Below are positions 2,641 to 44,574 of a stretch of 64,000 bases of DNA, one piece after another. Source of the stretch: Prevotellaceae bacterium (GTDB lineage: Bacteria; Bacteroidota; Bacteroidia; Bacteroidales; UBA932); NCBI GenBank assembly GCA_031266015.1, contig JAISBU010000031.1:1-64000 (forward strand), in the 5' to 3' direction. Within the stretch, counting starts at the first letter, position 1. The number at the start of each line of letters is the position of its first letter. The position numbers were made by a program, and so were the translations under genes. The notes below the pieces were generated by a model. That model ran no database searches, was not told where the DNA came from, and worked only from the letters and a program-made list of their open reading frames with translations.

Positions 2641-3564
2641 CTACCCCACTATTCTCACTCCCTCTTTATTTATCTGTGACACAAACACATGGTTTTCTAT
2701 GCCAACCTTGTTGAATCCATCCTGCATGGCCTGCGCAACTTTCTGCGCTATCTTTTCATTCCTGCTCAAAGCAAAAATAGATGGGCCGCTTCCCGATATG
2801 CTACATCCCAACGCACCTGCATCCAATGCGGCTTGTTTTATCGTGTAAAACTCAGGAATAAGCAAAGCTCTCACCGGCTCCACTATCACATCGTGCAGCG
2901 AGCGGCCAATAAGATCATAGTCATTTGTAAAAAGTCCGGCAACCAGTCCGGCCACATTGCCCCACTGCTCCACGGCTTTTTTAATTGGCACTTCCTGACG
3001 CAATATTTTCCGGCTATCGCTGGTGCGCACCTCAATTTGCGGATGTATCACCGTAGCGTATATTTCAGGGCTCGGAACAGGAATCACGTCCAACGGCGAA
3101 TAGCTGCGCACCAGCGTAAAACCACCCATAAGGGCGGGCGCCACATTATCGGCATGTGCCGATCCGCTTGCAGCCTTTTCTCCTTGCATGGCAAACTGCA
3201 CCAGCTCCTTGCGGGTGTATGGCCGTCCCAACAGCTCGTTAGCGCCAAAAACTCCGGCGGCAGAACTTGCTGCGCTGGAGCCAACGCCACTACCCGGCAT
3301 TATCTTCTTCAAAAACGTAACAGTGAAACCTTGCCTGCTTCGTATGGCATCCAGCATACTTTGCAAGGCCACTGCAGTAGCGTTTTTTTCCGGTTCTAAA
3401 GGCAATCCATAAGGAGTGTCGTCCTGAAGAATTATTTTACCCGAAGCATTTTTCTCCATGCTAACCTCGTCACCTGGCGAATTTAGCGCAAAACCCATCA
3501 CATCAAATCCGCAAGCAACATTGGCTACGGTTGCCGGTGAAAAAATCTTTATCTTTTTTGACAT
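2641..3564 (-). CDS. thrB: Homoserine kinase
   Basis: A 307-residue GHMP-family kinase that phosphorylates homoserine with ATP, giving the substrate of threonine synthase. The GHMP ATP-binding loop is at residues 90-101 (PGSGVGSSAASS), and the C-terminal glycine motif GALGCSISGSGPS is present. The N-terminal KIFSPATVANVACGFDVMGFAL is the usual ThrB opening, split here only by length. It lies in the middle of the thr operon, 68 bases after thrA and 85 bases before thrC. Both gaps carry short AT-rich sequences with no obvious promoter. Confidence 0.96.
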   Translation of the reverse strand: MSKKIKIFSPATVANVACGFDVMGFALNSPGDEVSMEKNASGKIILQDDTPYGLPLEPEKNATAVALQSMLDAIRSRQGFTVTFLKKIMPGSGVGSSAASSAAGVFGANELLGRPYTRKELVQFAMQGEKAASGSAHADNVAPALMGGFTLVRSYSPLDVIPVPSPEIYATVIHPQIEVRTSDSRKILRQEVPIKKAVEQWGNVAGLVAGLFTNDYDLIGRSLHDVIVEPVRALLIPEFYTIKQAALDAGALGCSISGSGPSIFALSRNEKIAQKVAQAMQDGFNKVGIENHVFVSQINKEGVRIVG

Positions 3565-3632: not shown

Positions 3633-6062
3633 CTATAAGTTAACCACGCTCACAATATCGGCAAACACACCTGAAGCCGTAACCGCAGCGCCTGCGCCTG
3701 CGCCCTTAATCACCATTGGTAACGCATTGTAGCGCTCGGTGTAAAGAGTAATAATATTATCGCTACCCTGCAAGTTGAAAAACGGATGAGAAGCATCTAC
3801 CTCTTGCAAGCCAATCCCGGCCTTACCATTCTCCAATGAAGCTACAAACCTCCAACGCTTCCCTTGAGCGTACAGCGCTTTACGGCGTTGCTCAAAATCA
3901 GCATCCAGCTTCTCTACCGCAGCAAAGAACGAATCTATATCAGGCGTTTCAAAACAGCTAACCGGCAGAAATGTAGCTACCACTACATCCTCTCTCTCTA
4001 ACGGATAGCCGGATTCACGTCCCAAAATCAATATTTTTCGTAGCACATCAATACCACTCAAATCAATACGGGGATCCGGCTCAGAGTAACCTTTTTCTTT
4101 TGCCAGCTTTATGGCCTTACTCATTGACACTTCCTCACTAATAGTGTTGAAAATAAAGTTGAGCGTACCCGAAAGAACCGCCTCCAGCTTCACAATCTTA
4201 TCACCGCTAAGCAGCAAATCGTCAATGGTTTTCAGCACGGGTAATCCCGCCCCAACGTTAGTTTCGTACAAAAACTTAAGCCCACGGGAGCGTGACAGCT
4301 CCTGTAAATTCTGATAACGCGAATACTCCGAAGAGCAAGCAATCTTATTAGCGGTAACCACCGACACAAACTCCTTAAGCATGTCCTCGTACATAGCAGC
4401 CACATCTGCACTTGCAGAGCAATCCACAAAAACGCTATTACGCAAGTTAGCTTCCGATGCACGCCTGGTAAACTCAGCGGCGTTCAACGAAGCACCCTTC
4501 ACCTCCAGCTCACCTTTCACATTGTCAAGAGGAATTCCGTTCGTATTTACCAACATCTTCTTAGAGTTCATTATGCCTATCAAGTTGATTTTCAGACGAT
4601 GCTCCTTAAGAAGATTTTCCTTTTGCGAATGTATTTGCTGCAAAAGATTACTGCCCACCAACCCTATCCCCGCTAGAAAAAGGTGTATTTCCTTGTATCC
4701 CGACAGAAAAAACGCCTCATGAATCACATTCAGCGCCTTACGCAAATCCACCTTTTTGATTACTGTAGAAATGTTCAGCTCCGAAGAACCCTGCGCAATG
4801 GCAACAACGTTAATACCGTTCTTGCCCAAAGCGTTGAAGAGCTTACCCGAAATACCCGGCATGCGCTTCATATTCTCACCAACAATAGCAATGATTGAAG
4901 CGGACTCCTCTACCTTCAGCTCAATAGTACCCAACTCCATTTCGGCTGAAAACTCTTCGTTAATCAGCTGCCTGGCCGCGGATACGCTTTGCGGAATTAT
5001 AGCGAAGGTAATAGACTGTTCCGATGAAGCCTGAGATATTAAAACCACGCTAACCTTACCTTCTCCCAACGCGCCGAACAAGCGCTTAGAAATACCGGAC
5101 ACACCGGTCAAACCAACACCCTGCAAGGTAAGCAGCGCTATATCATCAACAGATGAAATACCTTTCACGGGTTGCTTTGATGTCATATCAACCTCGGCAT
5201 CTACCAGAGTTCCGGCAGCAGATGGGTTGAATGTATTTTTTACCCACATGGGAATTTTAGCCGCCAATACCGGATGTACGGTAGGCGGATAAATAACCTT
5301 AGCGCCAAAGTGAGACAGCTCAAACACCTCCAGGTAGCTCATGTGTTTTATAGGATACGCCTTTTCCACCTTACGCGGGTCGGCCGTCAAAAAGCCATCA
5401 ACATCTGTCCAAATTTCCAAAGAGCTGGCCCCAATGGCAGCAGCATAAATAGCTGCGGTATAATCACTTCCTCCTCTACCAAGCGTTGTGGTATCGCCAT
5501 CTACGGTTGATGCAATAAAACCGGGCAATACCGCTCTATTTGCAAGCTTTGCAAACGCTGCTTTACATAGCGCATTTGTTTTATCAAAATCAACCTTAGC
5601 GTTGCTATAGCTTGCATCGGTCTTAATCAGGTGGCGAGAGTCCATCAGCACAGCGCCATCAATAACCTCACTCAACAAAAACGAGCTCATACGCTCACCG
5701 AAGCTCAACACATAATCCTGAAGCTTTGGAGTCAGCTCCTTAAGGCGCGCTATACTTTGTAAATAATCCTCCAGCTCGTTTAGCAGCACTTTAAGCTCGC
5801 TCAATACATGACCTTGGTTTTGCGGCTTTATCAGCGTTTTTGCAACACTCAAATGGCATTGCTCTACTTCCGATAGTATTTTAGCATGCTCACCTGTACC
5901 ATTCGCCGCCGATGTGCATGCCTGAACAAGCATATCGGTAACGCCGCCTAACGCCGACACCACCACAATTCTATTCTCCGGCGATGCCTCTACAATGGCT
6001 TTTACTTTTAATATGTTCTCGGCGCTGACCACCGATGAGCCGCCAAACTTTAAAACTTTCAT
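3633..6062 (-). CDS. thrA: Bifunctional aspartokinase / homoserine dehydrogenase
   Basis: An 809-residue fusion enzyme. The N-terminal aspartate kinase (about 1-290, KFGGSS at 4-9, GRGGSDYTAA later) phosphorylates aspartate. Two ACT-type regulatory regions lie at about 310-460. The C-terminal homoserine dehydrogenase (about 465-809) begins with the nucleotide loop GIGLVGSNLL. It commits aspartate to threonine. I chose the ATG at 6062 because it gives the family start MKVLKFGGSS; the frame extends 21 codons upstream but there reads through a copy of the intergenic repeat. First gene of thrA-thrB-thrC, 77 bases after the GroES-like gene. The ACT domains suggest feedback inhibition by threonine. 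No thr leader peptide was seen. Confidence 0.96.
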   Translation of the reverse strand: MKVLKFGGSSVVSAENILKVKAIVEASPENRIVVVSALGGVTDMLVQACTSAANGTGEHAKILSEVEQCHLSVAKTLIKPQNQGHVLSELKVLLNELEDYLQSIARLKELTPKLQDYVLSFGERMSSFLLSEVIDGAVLMDSRHLIKTDASYSNAKVDFDKTNALCKAAFAKLANRAVLPGFIASTVDGDTTTLGRGGSDYTAAIYAAAIGASSLEIWTDVDGFLTADPRKVEKAYPIKHMSYLEVFELSHFGAKVIYPPTVHPVLAAKIPMWVKNTFNPSAAGTLVDAEVDMTSKQPVKGISSVDDIALLTLQGVGLTGVSGISKRLFGALGEGKVSVVLISQASSEQSITFAIIPQSVSAARQLINEEFSAEMELGTIELKVEESASIIAIVGENMKRMPGISGKLFNALGKNGINVVAIAQGSSELNISTVIKKVDLRKALNVIHEAFFLSGYKEIHLFLAGIGLVGSNLLQQIHSQKENLLKEHRLKINLIGIMNSKKMLVNTNGIPLDNVKGELEVKGASLNAAEFTRRASEANLRNSVFVDCSASADVAAMYEDMLKEFVSVVTANKIACSSEYSRYQNLQELSRSRGLKFLYETNVGAGLPVLKTIDDLLLSGDKIVKLEAVLSGTLNFIFNTISEEVSMSKAIKLAKEKGYSEPDPRIDLSGIDVLRKILILGRESGYPLEREDVVVATFLPVSCFETPDIDSFFAAVEKLDADFEQRRKALYAQGKRWRFVASLENGKAGIGLQEVDASHPFFNLQGSDNIITLYTERYNALPMVIKGAGAGAAVTASGVFADIVSVVNL

Positions 6063-6139
6063 ACCCTCAATTTTATCTATACGATACACGCCATCGCTTC
6101 GCTCTGAATGACGGTTAAAAAACACTCGCGTCTTTACTT

Positions 6140-6529
6140 CTATCTAAAATCATTATTCTGCACCAACAATAGTATTGCAGTGTGCGGTACTATCAAGTAT
6201 TTTTCTCCATTAAATTCAATTTCCCAAGTAGAGTTTTGAAGATACACGGCCAAATCTCCAACCCTCGGCTGTAAAGGCAAATATTTGACTTCATCTTGCT
6301 TGTTGCGCCAAGGTTCATCAGCATCATTCAACGCTGGAATCGGATAGCCCGGGCCAGCTTTCACCACATAGCCTGCGTATATAGGCTCGTTAGACTGCAA
6401 GCCTGCGGGCAGTAGCAACCCCGACTTGGTTTTCTCCTGCTCCGTACGTGGCTTTATCAGCACTTTATCACCTACTAAAGCTACATTTTCTAACTCTTCC
6501 GCTGAAAAAGAAAGCAACATACAACCCAC
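6140..6529 (-). CDS. GroES-family co-chaperone-like protein
   Basis: A 129-residue protein with the GroES fold signature: VALVGDKVLIKPRTEQEKTK near the start, then GLLLP, the mobile-loop region, GYVVKAGPG, the VGDLAVYLQ segment and EKYLIVPHTAILLLV at the end. Canonical GroES is about 95 residues; this one has an insertion of about 25 residues in the middle (PALNDADEPWRNKQDE), as in the GroES-like proteins that many Bacteroidetes carry besides groES. There is no groEL partner nearby, so its client is unknown. ATG codons at 6529 and 6520 are both possible. It precedes thrA by 77 bases and may be co-transcribed with it. Confidence 0.8.
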   Translation of the reverse strand: MGCMLLSFSAEELENVALVGDKVLIKPRTEQEKTKSGLLLPAGLQSNEPIYAGYVVKAGPGYPIPALNDADEPWRNKQDEVKYLPLQPRVGDLAVYLQNSTWEIEFNGEKYLIVPHTAILLLVQNNDFR

Positions 6530-6585
6530 AAATAGTTTATAATGAACAAATTACAAATGACGGCAAAACGAACTGCTAAATTTAA

Positions 6586-6593
6586 TAAAGGTA
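6586..6593 (-). promoter_or_regulatory. Promoter -7 box for the GroES-like gene and thr operon
   Basis: On the minus strand this reads TACCTTTA, one base from TAnnTTTG. A TTTG at 6615-6618 on the same strand lies about 21 bases upstream, a fitting -33 element. It is the only such site before the GroES-like gene and probably serves thrABC too. Confidence 0.5.
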
Positions 6594-6640
6594 ACAAATT
6601 TACTCGTATTTAACAAATCCACTCATGTTGCTTTTTTTAG

Positions 6641-6648
6641 TACCTTTA
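6641..6648 (+). promoter_or_regulatory. Promoter -7 box for the LysM gene
   Basis: TACCTTTA follows a T-run and lies 44 bases before the ATG of the LysM protein gene at 6693. One mismatch to TAnnTTTG. Confidence 0.5.
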
Positions 6649-6692
6649 TAGGTTAAGCGAAGCAATAATGCTTCGCTTCAACACACAAAGCT

Positions 6693-8597
6693 ATGCGTCA
6701 TTTTTTTCTTCTGTTACTATCCGCAGCTCTACATATCGCACCAACGGCAGCACAGGTACAGGTTGAACGTTCCGCCAAAACGGTAAGCGAAGGTGAAAAA
6801 ACGTACTACCTGCACACTGTAAAAAAGGGAGAAACCATGTACTCAATCTGCCGTGCCTACGGCGTATCCGAAGCGGAAATGCACCAGAGTAACCCGATTC
6901 TAAATGATGAAGTTATCAAGGTTGATCAGGTACTCAAAGTTATAGCCAAAGCAGCTACCCCAGCCATCACTACCGCTAATGCTGCTAATAGTAACACTCG
7001 TCCGGCCGGTCGCACCTATCACATCACAAAAGAAGGAGAAACTTTATACTCCATTGCCCGTCAATACAGGATTACCGTTGACGACATACTGGCTGTAAAT
7101 CCGGAAGTAGACAAGGTTTTATCTGTAGGCGTGGTTCTCAACATCCCCGCCGATACAGTACCCGCAACACCATCTATCAACCACAATGAGCATATTAAAG
7201 TTGTAGAGCACATTGTACAGCGCAAAGAAACATTGTTCTCTATATCAAATATTTACGAGGTAGATATTAATGCCATCAAGCTGTACAATCCGCGATATTT
7301 TGCCACAGGAAAAGAACGCCTCAAAGTAGGACAGGCGCTCAACATACCCCTTATGCTGTCGGGCGTAAAGAAAGGGACTGCTACACATACCAACATTGCA
7401 ACGAGTAAGGAGTGCGACAATATACAGCGCAACAAAACACCATTCAACGTGGTACTGCTGGCGCCATTCAACGCCGATCAACAGGATAATCCGGATGAAT
7501 TGCACCGTTCGTTCCGCTTCCTGGAAATGTACGAAGGCGCGATGCTGGCTTTAGATGAGCTGCGTAAGCAAGGAGCATCATTTGTACTTACCGTAGTCGA
7601 CACTAAATTCACAGACCTTGATGCCATCCTACACGGCGCTGCTCTTAGCAATGCAGACTTAATTATTGGCCCGGTATACCAAGAAGACTTCGCTCCAATA
7701 GCAGACTTTGCATTAGGAAAAGATACTAAAATTATATCGCCGCTCACACCAATTGACTCCTCTTTGCTATCCTACAGCAACGTATATCAAATACCCAGCA
7801 CTTTTGAGCAGCAAGCGCAAAAGCTACTTTCCAGCGATCTTACCGATGTACAAAAATCTAACATCATTCTACTTTCGCAAATAGGAAATGAGGATAGCAG
7901 AAGCATTCGCAACCTGTACCGCCAATACCTGCCACACTGCGATACCTTCGCATATAAAAACGCACCGGCAAGCAAAGACTCAGCTTCACTTGAGCAAGCA
8001 AAACTGCAGTATGAGTGCAGAGTAAACGCACCAACAGTAAAGCAAGTACTTTACAGAGGAGGTTTGCAACCAAGAGACAATCAGGAAATGTTTTTGGAGG
8101 TATTCAACCCAAATGTAATCAACAAGGTAATTGTAGCGTCGGAGGATGAGCCTTTTGTTTCCGAAGTGTTGGCCAACTTGAAAGCATTCTCTGATCGTTA
8201 TCGCTGCAAAATTGTAGTGTACGGAAATAATAAATGGCGTAAGTTTGAGAACATTGAGCTCAGCATTTTTTACAACCTCAAATTACGCCTGGCTACGCCT
8301 TACTACACAGATTATGAGGCTACGCCTGTAATAAAATTTATTGAAGATTATCGCAAGAAATATAAAACCGAGCCATCTCAATTTGCCTATCAGGGTCACG
8401 ATATAATGCTGTATTTTGGAACCGCACTTTATCAGTACGGCCGTAGCTTTGAGCGCTGCTTGCCGTACGTAAATGTAGACCTGCTGCAATCTAAGTACAA
8501 CTTTGTACCTCTCAGGCTCAACGGTGCATACGGGAACTCAGATTCATTCCTGATTCGCTACAACAGCGCGATGCTGGAAATTTTTCCTTATAAATAA
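6693..8597 (+). CDS. LysM-repeat protein with periplasmic-binding-protein-like domain
   Basis: A 634-residue exported protein. After a signal peptide (cut after about residue 20, TAAQ) come three LysM repeats, at about 40-85 (YLHTVKKGETMYSICRAYG), 108-150 and 170-215, which bind peptidoglycan. The rest, from about 245, resembles a type 1 periplasmic-binding fold, as in amino-acid ABC receptors and LppC/LpoA-like proteins (NVVLLAPFNADQ, IIGPVYQEDFAPIADFA). Such fusions are widespread in Bacteroidetes; an LpoA-like role in wall assembly is possible but unproven. No transporter genes are nearby. The PLP-homeostasis gene follows after four bases, so the two are probably co-transcribed. Confidence 0.85.
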   Translation: MRHFFLLLLSAALHIAPTAAQVQVERSAKTVSEGEKTYYLHTVKKGETMYSICRAYGVSEAEMHQSNPILNDEVIKVDQVLKVIAKAATPAITTANAANSNTRPAGRTYHITKEGETLYSIARQYRITVDDILAVNPEVDKVLSVGVVLNIPADTVPATPSINHNEHIKVVEHIVQRKETLFSISNIYEVDINAIKLYNPRYFATGKERLKVGQALNIPLMLSGVKKGTATHTNIATSKECDNIQRNKTPFNVVLLAPFNADQQDNPDELHRSFRFLEMYEGAMLALDELRKQGASFVLTVVDTKFTDLDAILHGAALSNADLIIGPVYQEDFAPIADFALGKDTKIISPLTPIDSSLLSYSNVYQIPSTFEQQAQKLLSSDLTDVQKSNIILLSQIGNEDSRSIRNLYRQYLPHCDTFAYKNAPASKDSASLEQAKLQYECRVNAPTVKQVLYRGGLQPRDNQEMFLEVFNPNVINKVIVASEDEPFVSEVLANLKAFSDRYRCKIVVYGNNKWRKFENIELSIFYNLKLRLATPYYTDYEATPVIKFIEDYRKKYKTEPSQFAYQGHDIMLYFGTALYQYGRSFERCLPYVNVDLLQSKYNFVPLRLNGAYGNSDSFLIRYNSAMLEIFPYK

Positions 8598-9392: not shown

Positions 9393-9427
9393 ACTCGTAC
9401 TGATAAATTGTAAATCGTAAATGGTTG

Positions 9428-41138: not shown

Positions 41139-42248
41139 TTAGTCTCCAAAGCAAATGTTGATGCTTTTAGCGGTATGCACCAAAAAGCAGTCGGGATCTA
41201 CAAACTTGGCGTTATTGCTAACATCCTCAAAGGGCACAGATACAATTTTGTTGGCCTGGAAGGCAACCATGTGTCCAAATTGTCCTTCCCTAACCATTTC
41301 AAAAGCCTTTACACCATACTGAGACGCCAGCACACGGTCGTAAGGCACCGGGCCGCCGCCGCGTTGAACGTGACCCAGGATGGTACAACGAATGCCGGTC
41401 TCAATACCTGCCAGCTGCAGCGCCTCGGCTAAACGTTGCGCAGCGCCTTCAAAGCGAACGCTGCTCAACTCCGTTTCCTTTACTCCCAAAGCGATGCCGC
41501 CCTTAGGCATAGCGCCCTCTGCCACCACCACTACGGCAAACTTCTTTCCACCCTCAAAGCGCTGATCCAGGAAGTGCTTTATTTTTCTTATATCGTAGGG
41601 AATTTCGGGCAGAAGGCAGATCTCGGCGCCACCGGCAACGGAGGCATGCAGGGCAATCCATCCGGAATTCTTTCCCATTACCTCAAGCACCAAAATGCGG
41701 TTGTGACTTTCAGCTGTACTCACAAGCCTGTCAACCGCCTCGGCAGCCACATCCACTGCAGACTGAAAACCGAAGGTTACATCGGTTGCACCCAAGTCAT
41801 TATCAATCGTTTTAGGCACACCGATAATAGGCAATCCTTTGTCAAACAAACGTTTAGACATTGCTTGAGAGCCATCGCCTCCAATGTTGACCACAGCATC
41901 AAAGCCTATATCCTTGCATATTTGAATCATCTCATCCGAGCGGTCAACATACGTGTATGAGCCGTCAGATTGCTTTACCGGCCAGTTAAACGGACCGCCA
42001 CGCTTGGTGGTGCCAATAATGGTACCTCCTTTCACATGAATGCCCGATACCGCCTTGCGGTCAAGCAACCGGAGGTCCTGCGGCTGTCCCAGTAAACCAT
42101 TGAATGATTGAATACTTCCCCACACCTCCCATTCAGGATTCTTCTCCATGCCGGCTCGTTTTACGAACGAGCGAAGCACTGCATTTAAGCCGGGACAGTC
42201 GCCCCCGCTAGTGGCAATAAGTACCTTTTTTTTGCGCATATCTTTCAC
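41139..42248 (-). CDS. pfkA: 6-phosphofructokinase
   Basis: A 369-residue glycolytic kinase that phosphorylates fructose 6-phosphate. TSGGDCPGLNAVLR at the start binds the phosphate donor. GGDGSQAM has Gly at the position (104 in E. coli numbering) that marks ATP users, while PKTIDNDL has Lys at position 124, as in pyrophosphate enzymes and group III ATP enzymes. I favour ATP as donor. MGKNSGWIAL and HVQRGG are present. The length is about 50 above E. coli PfkA. Starts at 42248 or 42239 are possible. Confidence 0.93.
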   Translation of the reverse strand: MKDMRKKKVLIATSGGDCPGLNAVLRSFVKRAGMEKNPEWEVWGSIQSFNGLLGQPQDLRLLDRKAVSGIHVKGGTIIGTTKRGGPFNWPVKQSDGSYTYVDRSDEMIQICKDIGFDAVVNIGGDGSQAMSKRLFDKGLPIIGVPKTIDNDLGATDVTFGFQSAVDVAAEAVDRLVSTAESHNRILVLEVMGKNSGWIALHASVAGGAEICLLPEIPYDIRKIKHFLDQRFEGGKKFAVVVVAEGAMPKGGIALGVKETELSSVRFEGAAQRLAEALQLAGIETGIRCTILGHVQRGGGPVPYDRVLASQYGVKAFEMVREGQFGHMVAFQANKIVSVPFEDVSNNAKFVDPDCFLVHTAKSINICFGD

Positions 42249-42358: not shown

Positions 42359-42733
42359 TTACTTAATTTTCAGGTTGATAGCATCGAGCAAATCACGTAG
42401 AGCCTGCTTTTCCTGGTTTGATAGGTGATTTAAGCTTTTATGTGCTTCAAGCAGCTCATTTACAATTCTTTTCAAGTCGTCATAGGTCAGAGACGATACC
42501 ACCGTTCCACTTTGCGGATGAGTACGTAGCACACCGTAAAACTCCAGCTTCCTTATGGCATCGCGCACGTAGGTGCGCCCTACTCCAAATCGCTCCGCCA
42601 GCTTACGCTCTGAGGGCAATTTATCACCCGGTTGCAGGCGTTTGTCCGCGATAAGGCTTTGTATTTGGCGGGTAATTACATCCACCGGGCTTTCCACTAC
42701 TACCTCTTGCAGGCTGCTTAGAATATCCTCCAT
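42359..42733 (-). CDS. Short GntR-family regulator lacking the ligand domain
   Basis: A 124-residue DNA-binding protein. The winged helix-turn-helix at about 17-85 has KRLQPGDKLPSERKLAERFGVGRTYVRDAIRKLEFYGVL, of which the core GDKLPSERKLAERFGVGR is the GntR signature of the FadR subgroup. FadR-type regulators are normally about 230 residues with a C-terminal FCD domain. Here only a short, charged helical tail (NELLEAHKSLNHLSNQEKQ) follows, so dimerisation may rely on that helix and no metabolite site is evident. Upstream is a 32-bp perfect palindrome directly after its promoter box, so self-repression is likely. It diverges from the XRE regulator. Confidence 0.88.
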   Translation of the reverse strand: MEDILSSLQEVVVESPVDVITRQIQSLIADKRLQPGDKLPSERKLAERFGVGRTYVRDAIRKLEFYGVLRTHPQSGTVVSSLTYDDLKRIVNELLEAHKSLNHLSNQEKQALRDLLDAINLKIK

Positions 42734-42765: not shown

Positions 42766-42797
42766 CAGAACACTTATCATATATGATAAGTGTTCTG
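42766..42797. promoter_or_regulatory. 32-bp perfect palindrome, likely operator
   Basis: CAGAACACTTATCATA followed by TATGATAAGTGTTCTG, a perfect palindrome without a spacer. It begins directly after the -7 box of the GntR gene, so a bound protein would cover the transcription start. Its core TTATC-N6-GATAA recurs at 42820-42835 next to the start of the divergent XRE gene. Confidence 0.85.
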
Positions 42798-42805
42798 CAA
42801 ATATA
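42798..42805 (-). promoter_or_regulatory. Promoter for the GntR-type regulator
   Basis: On the minus strand TATATTTG, an exact -7 match, preceded at a distance of 18 bases by TTTG as -33 element (42824-42827). The palindrome follows without a gap. Confidence 0.7.
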
Positions 42806-42819
42806 ATCAAAAAACTTTG

Positions 42820-42835
42820 TTATCAAAGATGATAA
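42820..42835. promoter_or_regulatory. Second TTATC-N6-GATAA site
   Basis: TTATCAAAGATGATAA has the same half-sites and spacing as the core of the palindrome at 42766-42797, 38 bases from it centre to centre. It overlaps the -33 region of the GntR promoter and the first possible ATG (42829) of the XRE gene, so binding could repress both genes. Confidence 0.6.
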
Positions 42836-42843
42836 AGCAAAAG

Positions 42844-43065
42844 ATGATTACCATAGAAAAACTACAGATAAAAGTCGGACAGCGTATTAAGCAGCTGAGA
42901 AACGAACGGGGAATAACCGCACAGGATTTAGCAGCAGCTTGCAACTTCGAAACCTCCAACATGTCACGCATTGAGGCCGGCAAAACCAACCTGACGCTCA
43001 AAACGCTCTACAAAATTGCCTACGCTCTGGAAACCACCGTAGCTGAGCTGGTAAATGTGGAGTAG
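42844..43065 (+). CDS. Small XRE-family DNA-binding regulator
   Basis: About 73 residues, almost only a Cro/C1-type helix-turn-helix domain: GQRIKQLRNERGITAQDLAAACNFETSNMSRIEAGKTNLTLKTLYKIAYALETTVAEL, of which the core LAAACNFETSNMSRIE spans the recognition helices. No second domain is present. The ATG at 42844 gives a usual start; the ATG at 42829 would lie inside the second operator-like site. It diverges from the GntR-type gene and probably shares its control region. Targets unknown. Confidence 0.85.
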   Translation: MITIEKLQIKVGQRIKQLRNERGITAQDLAAACNFETSNMSRIEAGKTNLTLKTLYKIAYALETTVAELVNVE

Positions 43066-43132
43066 CCCTTTTGTCAGGTCAAGCCTGTAGATTTATGATT
43101 TACGACTTATGATTTACAATTGACCGGCAGCT

Positions 43133-43160: not shown

Positions 43161-43239
43161 TTATTCTAATAATGAGATAGTTATGCGGTTTTCTCGTACC
43201 GATAAATAGCAAATAGTAAATTGTCAATCGTAAATGGTA

Positions 43240-44574
43240 CTACGCCAGCAGCTCAACTTTGAGCGCCTGCGTAGTTTTGCCGGTAATGGCAAAGCGAGCA
43301 TCCGGTCGAAGCCCTACAATCCAAGCAATGGCCTCCTCGGAGCATAAAAGCAGCTGCATTTGTTTTTGCAGAATACTCAACTTCCGGTCTACAAAAAAGT
43401 CGCTCAACTTTTTTTTCCCATTTACTCCCAGCGGATTAAATGTATCGCCATGCCGCCAGTGACGCACTTGCAAAGGGAATTGCAGCTTATCGTAGTCTAA
43501 AAAAACGACTGTATTTCCTTCGGAGAAATCAACTTCGGCAGGTGGTATCCGGGAAAATTTAAGCAGGATTTGCCCTTTTATTTGTACAACAAACGGATAG
43601 GCTCGCTCTGCAACTTCAAGGAAGAAGCTCTCATCGACTTGTTCTCGCTTTTTTACAATCAGACAGCCTCGATCCTTCACCAGAATATGGCTTGCGGAGT
43701 AAAACTTTTTTCCGGAAGTCGCATTAAGCAGCGACGAAATATTATTGATGGTATCAGCAGAGAGGCCAAAATCGCACAGCAGCTCATAGAGCCAAAGGTT
43801 TACATTTTCTTTAGGCAGCTTATCAATCAAAATGCGCAGCTCGTCCCCATTTTGGCTACAGGCTTGATTTTTCACATCCTGCACCTGCTGCTCCACAATT
43901 TGCTGATACTGCCCCATCCGCTGCAAATTCTGCTGCATAGTTTGCAAAAATGAAGGGTTCAGCTGCTGCAGCTCCGGCACCACATAATGACGAATGCGAT
44001 TACGGGCGTACTTATCCGAGGTATTGGAAGAATCTTCACGAAAAGTCATATCCATAAGCCGAGCCTGCTCCAAAATTTCCTCACGTGCAGCAAATAAGAG
44101 CGGACGAACAATATTTCCCTGCCTTGCCGCTATACCCGTTAGCCCCTTAATCCCCGTACCCCGTGTAAGGTTCAGGATAAATGTTTCTACAGTATCGTTG
44201 GCGTTATGTCCAACTGCAATTTTGCTACAGCCATGCTTTTCTGCCATTTGTTGAAAGTAATCGTAACGCAGCTCACGGGCAGCCATTTGTATGGATATTC
44301 CTTTCTTCTGCGCATACTCCTGAGTATCAAAACGTTTACTCTCAAAGGAAAGATTATGTATTGCCGCCAACTCCGAAACAAGCTGTTCATCGCCATCGGA
44401 CTCTGCTCCGCGTAAACAAAAATTGCAGTGCAAAACTACCAACTCGTAGCCCGCCTGCAACAACAGATGCAGCAACAATACAGAGTCAACTCCACCGCTA
44501 ACCGCCACCAAAATTTTATCGGCAGGTAGCAGCAGCTCGTTGGCTAAAATGTATTTTTTGAAGCGGGATAACAT
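43240..44574 (-). CDS. tilS: tRNA(Ile)-lysidine synthase
   Basis: A 444-residue N-type ATP pyrophosphatase that attaches lysine to C34 of the AUA-reading isoleucine tRNA. The PP-loop SGGVDSVLLLHL is at about 27, and GHNANDTVETFILNLTRGTG follows at about 133. RNRIRHYVVPEL and the C-terminal TilS domain (WRHGDTFNPLGVNGKKKLSDFF, core GDTFNPLGVNGKKK) are complete. It lies 12 bases after fmt and is probably the last gene of the long his-spoIID-fmt-tilS run. Confidence 0.95.
   Translation of the reverse strand: MLSRFKKYILANELLLPADKILVAVSGGVDSVLLLHLLLQAGYELVVLHCNFCLRGAESDGDEQLVSELAAIHNLSFESKRFDTQEYAQKKGISIQMAARELRYDYFQQMAEKHGCSKIAVGHNANDTVETFILNLTRGTGIKGLTGIAARQGNIVRPLLFAAREEILEQARLMDMTFREDSSNTSDKYARNRIRHYVVPELQQLNPSFLQTMQQNLQRMGQYQQIVEQQVQDVKNQACSQNGDELRILIDKLPKENVNLWLYELLCDFGLSADTINNISSLLNATSGKKFYSASHILVKDRGCLIVKKREQVDESFFLEVAERAYPFVVQIKGQILLKFSRIPPAEVDFSEGNTVVFLDYDKLQFPLQVRHWRHGDTFNPLGVNGKKKLSDFFVDRKLSILQKQMQLLLCSEEAIAWIVGLRPDARFAITGKTTQALKVELLA

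Follow-up and report, generated by a model that had tools for sequence, protein, structure and literature searches.

Between divergent genes for a GntR protein and a tiny XRE protein, the 64,000-nucleotide stretch of DNA analysed here (the window) carries a 32-bp perfect palindrome and a second site of the same kind. The arrangement raises the question of which of the two DNA-binding proteins the sites belong to, the first-pass annotation having proposed that both proteins share the paired operators as a two-regulator switch.

The locus and its two palindromes

The 32-bp palindrome lies at 42766-42797, with arms of 16 bp each (42766-42781 and 42782-42797) that are 100% complementary with a gap of 0, and the second TTATC-N6-GATAA site, TTATCAAAGATGATAA, lies at 42820-42835; both had been claimed and both are borne out. 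By our own arithmetic, assuming equal base use, about 1.5e-5 perfect palindromes with 16-bp arms are expected per 64 kb. Matches to the palindrome core TTATCATATATGATAA with at most three mismatches were found at two places in the window, both at this locus, against 0.25 expected, and two matches were reached in 2 of 100 shuffles. The features of the locus are given below, the position of the -7 boxes relative to the transcription start site being taken from PMC9723704.

42359-42733, minus strand: GntR winged helix-turn-helix protein, 124 aa, without an FCD domain; the gene starts at 42733
42766-42797: extended 32-bp perfect palindrome around operator 1, with outer arms CAGAACAC/GTGTTCTG
42774-42789: operator 1 (putative XRE site 1), the perfect 16-bp palindrome TTATCATATATGATAA, kept in homologous modules
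42798-42805, minus strand: -7 box TATATTTG of the divergent (gntR) promoter, consensus TAnnTTTG
42812-42819, plus strand: -7 box AAACTTTG of the XRE promoter, without the TA of TAnnTTTG
42820-42835: operator 2 (putative XRE site 2), TTATCAAAGATGATAA, spanning the inferred XRE start (+4.5) and the gntR -33 region (-34.5)
42844-43065, plus strand: tiny XRE/Cro-C1 regulator, 73 aa, with an in-frame alternative ATG at 42829

Relative to the XRE promoter, operator 1 is centred at about -42.5, and relative to that of gntR at +12.5; from its end to the end of the XRE -7 box there are 30 bp. The palindrome directly follows the gntR -7 box (minus strand, 42805-42798) and the gntR -33 region lies under site 2 (centre -34.5), both as the first-pass annotation had it. 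The gene pair is flanked by pfk (41139-42248, minus strand) and tilS (43240-44574, minus strand); no phage or restriction-modification gene adjoins it. An inverted pair of AT-rich repeats of type TTTACGATTTACAATTGAC lies between the XRE and tilS genes (43106-43124, plus; 43216-43234, minus), and a third copy of the type occurs in the window at 9403-9421 (minus), with 0.03 matches expected by chance. A genome scan had been suggested for finding the regulon of TTATC-N6-GATAA. The 2.5-Mb source genome has ten other exact sites, all inside open reading frames and none intergenic, and a wider regulon was therefore rejected.

The paired sites in XRE homologues

XRE homologues of 36-61% identity (54-61% for the nearest) in other genera carry a pair of similar palindromes in the same position ahead of the gene, and GntR adjoins none of these other homologues. 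Homologues with the palindrome pair span other genera of the family, other families of the order and other class members, Flavobacteriia included. Homologues were found far more productively by a protein-led search than by an order-wide search for the exact pattern; in the latter, the exact site pair occurred in 3 of 393 genomes, adjoining an XRE gene in two and unrelated in one. When XRE loci were scored automatically for two palindromes of similar sequence, 29 of 41 had the pair, and two more (L143 and L149) were added by eye. The paired palindromes are spaced 45-50 bp apart in all but three loci (54, 67 and 67 bp). Of the two, site 1 has the higher symmetry in 18 modules and the lower in 3, with both sites level in 8. 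The sites have disappeared from one close homologue (L161), and distant class-level homologues mostly have one palindrome, the two-site layout not being kept.

The divergent gene is mostly of no known function, and its Pfam matches are rare (OmpA-like, trypsin-like, weak SH3-like and DnaJ/PLD-like). None of ten divergent genes gave a PADLOC match to known defence families, with few Pfam matches, and no restriction-modification gene was apparent by eye among the listed neighbours of the other modules. The XRE gene with its two sites is probably an on/off control unit that recurs across Bacteroidota, the neighbouring divergent gene changing with almost every genus.

Some divergent genes deserve mention in their own right. 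In one genus (g22; L114 and L142-L150 except L143 and L149) the gene belongs to a single family of 124-137 aa (M-ENLFSKKT-VIRKMIEKRIS); the member tested had no match in Pfam, and the family is a candidate new small-protein family under XRE control. The product of the L112 divergent gene (5835-7553), 573 aa long, is matched by neither Pfam nor PADLOC and has a GCYIATMAYGS-type motif near its end and, by eye, a J-domain-like start. A 40-bp near-perfect palindrome with a terminal T run, AAAAATTAACACAGGGCATATATACCCTGTGTTAATTTTT, located about 64 bp before the XRE homologue of L129, is possibly a terminator merged with an operator core.

Operator letters and the recognition helix

The letters of the operators change with the recognition helix of the XRE protein. 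Helix F-E-K/T-S-N (FEK/FETSN) pairs with TTATC-N6-GATAA, I-E-Y-N-N with CAATC or CTATC, M-E-R-S-S with GTAAC and E-V-S-V with TTGGC/TTAAC. Operator and helix were correlated with a Mantel r of 0.78 (0/5000 permutations) and, once similarity elsewhere in the protein was allowed for, with a partial r of 0.67 (0/2000); the remainder of the protein is tracked more by the spacer DNA than by the operators. The sites are tied to the XRE protein because their letters follow its recognition helix even after this correction. On these sequence comparisons, we assign both sites to the XRE protein and not to a shared GntR/XRE switch.

A fixed distance from site 1 to the XRE promoter

Bacteroidota promoters carry TAnnTTTG at -12 to -5 (PMC9723704) and TTTG near -33 (PMC7366714). 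In nearly all modules CAAAnnTA, the consensus -7 box of the divergent gene, follows site 1 by 7-10 bp. The XRE -7 box begins with TT or AA, with TA in 0 of 28 modules, and ends in TTTG directly before site 2. In this first set, whose loci are partly related and from which the spacing rule was drawn post hoc, the XRE TTTG ends 30 bp past the end of site 1 in 27 of 28 modules and 29 bp past it in one (by distinct sequences, 23 at 30 bp and one at 29 bp, n=24). The position of site 2 shifts by 0-8 bp against the XRE -7 box, and the distance between the sites therefore varies. The rule was then tried on more distant homologues from the class, collected later, with palindromes picked without reference to the promoter: in 7 of 24 of these loci a TTTG ends 29-31 bp beyond the palindrome, against 0.37 expected from shuffles; the other 17 testable homologues have no exact TTTG at 29-31 bp, several having TTTC or CTTG there. 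Because the distance from site 1 to the TTTG is fixed at 30 bp, site 1 is placed at about -42.5, the usual position of a class II activator, before a promoter that looks too weak alone.

We also found the unit on a viral contig (L228, IMG/VR 3300033405_000377, XRE at 2867-3109), where it adjoins a RelE/HigA-like pair and a tyrosine integrase and where the divergent gene encodes a PLD-domain plus weakly DnaJ-like protein. As this copy beside an integrase keeps both sites and the 30-bp distance, the two-operator XRE unit also moves on mobile DNA.

Proposed mechanism

We consider it likely that the 73-aa XRE protein is an autoregulator like the controller (C) proteins of restriction-modification systems or phage CI, with the two sites as its operators and gntR as its controlled cargo. 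From the layout we infer an order of binding, activation and repression. An XRE dimer would fill site 1 first, because it is the more symmetric site, and from about -42.5 would activate its own TA-less promoter while also covering +5 to +20 of the divergent consensus promoter, such that gntR would be blocked. At a higher dose of XRE, a dimer would occupy site 2 over the XRE start site and shut the XRE promoter, covering the gntR -33 region as well. The divergent gene would be expressed only while XRE is scarce, and GntR would be cargo under this control rather than the owner of the two sites.

The best-surviving alternative, which we regard as unlikely, is that XRE is a plain repressor that binds both sites and shuts both promoters, its own gene not being activated. 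Small single-domain XRE proteins are often autorepressors, and both sites overlap promoter elements of both genes; the argument for self-activation is one of promoter geometry, and a repressor-only scheme could equally fix the place of a site. However, of the two sites, site 1 alone stands at an exact distance from the XRE promoter, where class II activators usually bind, and no module has TA in its XRE -7 box, all of which points to the self-activating scheme.

Comparison with known systems

The XRE protein has a single HTH domain in Pfam and a PADLOC Control_protein match (2.1e-10), and its best solved folds by Foldseek are C.BclI (TM 0.89) and C.AhdI (TM 0.81), with sequence matches to controller proteins too. 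It resembles the C proteins (C.BclI, C.AhdI, C.Esp1396I, C.Csp231I) in size and single HTH fold, being a single-domain protein within the 70-100 aa range of that class, and in having two palindromic operators before its own gene; the geometry is also compatible with activate-then-repress logic, as we propose here. It differs from them in that no restriction or methyltransferase gene adjoins it, its neighbours being gntR, pfk and tilS, in that its site is TTATC-N6-GATAA and not the C-box GACT/AGTC, and in that the promoters flanking its operators are a divergent pair of the Bacteroidota type. The 16-bp sites are separated by 30 bp, whereas the gap between C-protein sites is usually about 4 bp, reaching 18 bp for C.Csp231I and 25 bp for EcoO109I, the nearest found (PMC4321490). 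By this analogy the XRE protein may work like a C protein, yet it departs from the class in gene neighbourhood, C-box sequence and site spacing.

Phage CI/Cro-type switches likewise combine one small HTH protein with several operators between divergent promoters. Lambda CI has its activating site near -42, and the presumed activating site of the XRE unit is similarly placed, but the XRE unit differs in having no second antagonist (Cro-like) protein and in the lack of phage genes near it in the window. In open-licence papers we found no published description of the XRE two-site arrangement.

The shortened GntR protein

The GntR protein has PF00392 as its only Pfam match (4.6e-19) and ends at residue 124, in agreement with the first-pass annotation that it has no FCD ligand domain. 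It has 61% identity across residues 1-100 to a full-length paralogue of 242 aa elsewhere in the genome (C20:112928) and 63% to a protein of a Saccharicrinis assembly, and every homologue goes on into a C-terminal domain that is missing from the window protein. Judged by these alignments, it is a shortened paralogue of the full-length regulator in the same genome. It shares the winged-HTH with the FadR/FCD subfamily, and its paralogue has FadR-type length, but in place of the FCD domain it has a 44-residue tail that AlphaFold2 predicts, with modest confidence, as two helices (pLDDT about 60-73). YtrA was among its Foldseek matches (TM about 0.5); the tail is YtrA-like in size, a short two-helix C-terminal dimerisation segment is a trait of the YtrA subfamily, and the predicted tail would allow a small YtrA-like dimer.

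The sequence TTGGTCAACCAA, which we take to be the classical shape of FadR-type GntR sites, or a close variant of it, occurs near the start of 7 of 9 homologous gntR genes. It is absent before the gntR gene of the window, and its only intergenic exact copy in the source genome lies before the full-length paralogue. A TTGGTCAACCAA regulon in that genome was rejected, with the exact intergenic match at the paralogue only and a looser pattern that was not enriched (8 against 21 in the control). The reading helix of the window protein is nearly unchanged relative to its relatives (VGRTYVRDAIRKLEFYG versus VGRTHVRDAIKKLEFYG), so the shortened GntR probably recognises the paralogue's site TTGGTTGACCAA, before the full-length gene.

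These results bear on the proposal that GntR and XRE share both operators. In its favour, the two genes diverge and site 1 comes soon after the gntR -7 box. The site pairs nonetheless accompany XRE homologues divergent from genes other than gntR and co-vary with the XRE recognition helix, and GntR relatives with nearly the same reading helix carry a different site, TTGGTCAACCAA. We therefore rejected GntR as owner of the two sites and find its co-use of them very unlikely; what stands of the earlier proposal is the pair of operators between divergent promoters, in a conserved layout.

The outer arms of the palindrome

The outer arms CAGAACAC/GTGTTCTG, 8 bp each, are absent from homologous modules and perfect in the source genome only. 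They would give the gntR mRNA a 5' hairpin, and they could stem from template-switch correction, a process that can perfect an imperfect palindrome. That the palindrome as a whole acts in RNA, as a 5'-end hairpin or attenuator of gntR mRNA, is the least probable reading: the transcript from the inferred start at 42793 opens with a 10-bp stem, but only the outer arms need such an explanation, the 16-bp core persists as a DNA site whose letters vary, there is no convincing T run behind the palindrome, and the fold z-score of just -1.56 likewise makes a terminator or hairpin reading weak.

Implications

The preferred reading, of XRE as an autoregulator with two operators, can be extended to a portable self-activating switch widespread in Bacteroidota. 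Such a switch would consist of an XRE protein of 70-78 aa, an activating site locked 30 bp before a TA-less -7 box, operator letters that follow the recognition helix and interchangeable divergent cargo, which here would be a ligand-domain-less GntR competing signal-free with its full-length paralogue for TTGGTTGACCAA. We offer this full picture tentatively, as possible but doubtful in its entirety.

From one palindrome, the comparison arrives at a rule by which operators and promoter layout can be predicted for a family of tiny regulators across Bacteroidota, whose promoters are of a type peculiar to the phylum. The pairs of operator and helix amount to a natural specificity code, with which sites could be assigned to XRE genes not yet characterised and orthogonal genetic switches could be built for harmless Bacteroidota. 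The rule also marks the mostly uncharacterised divergent genes as likely switched cargo.
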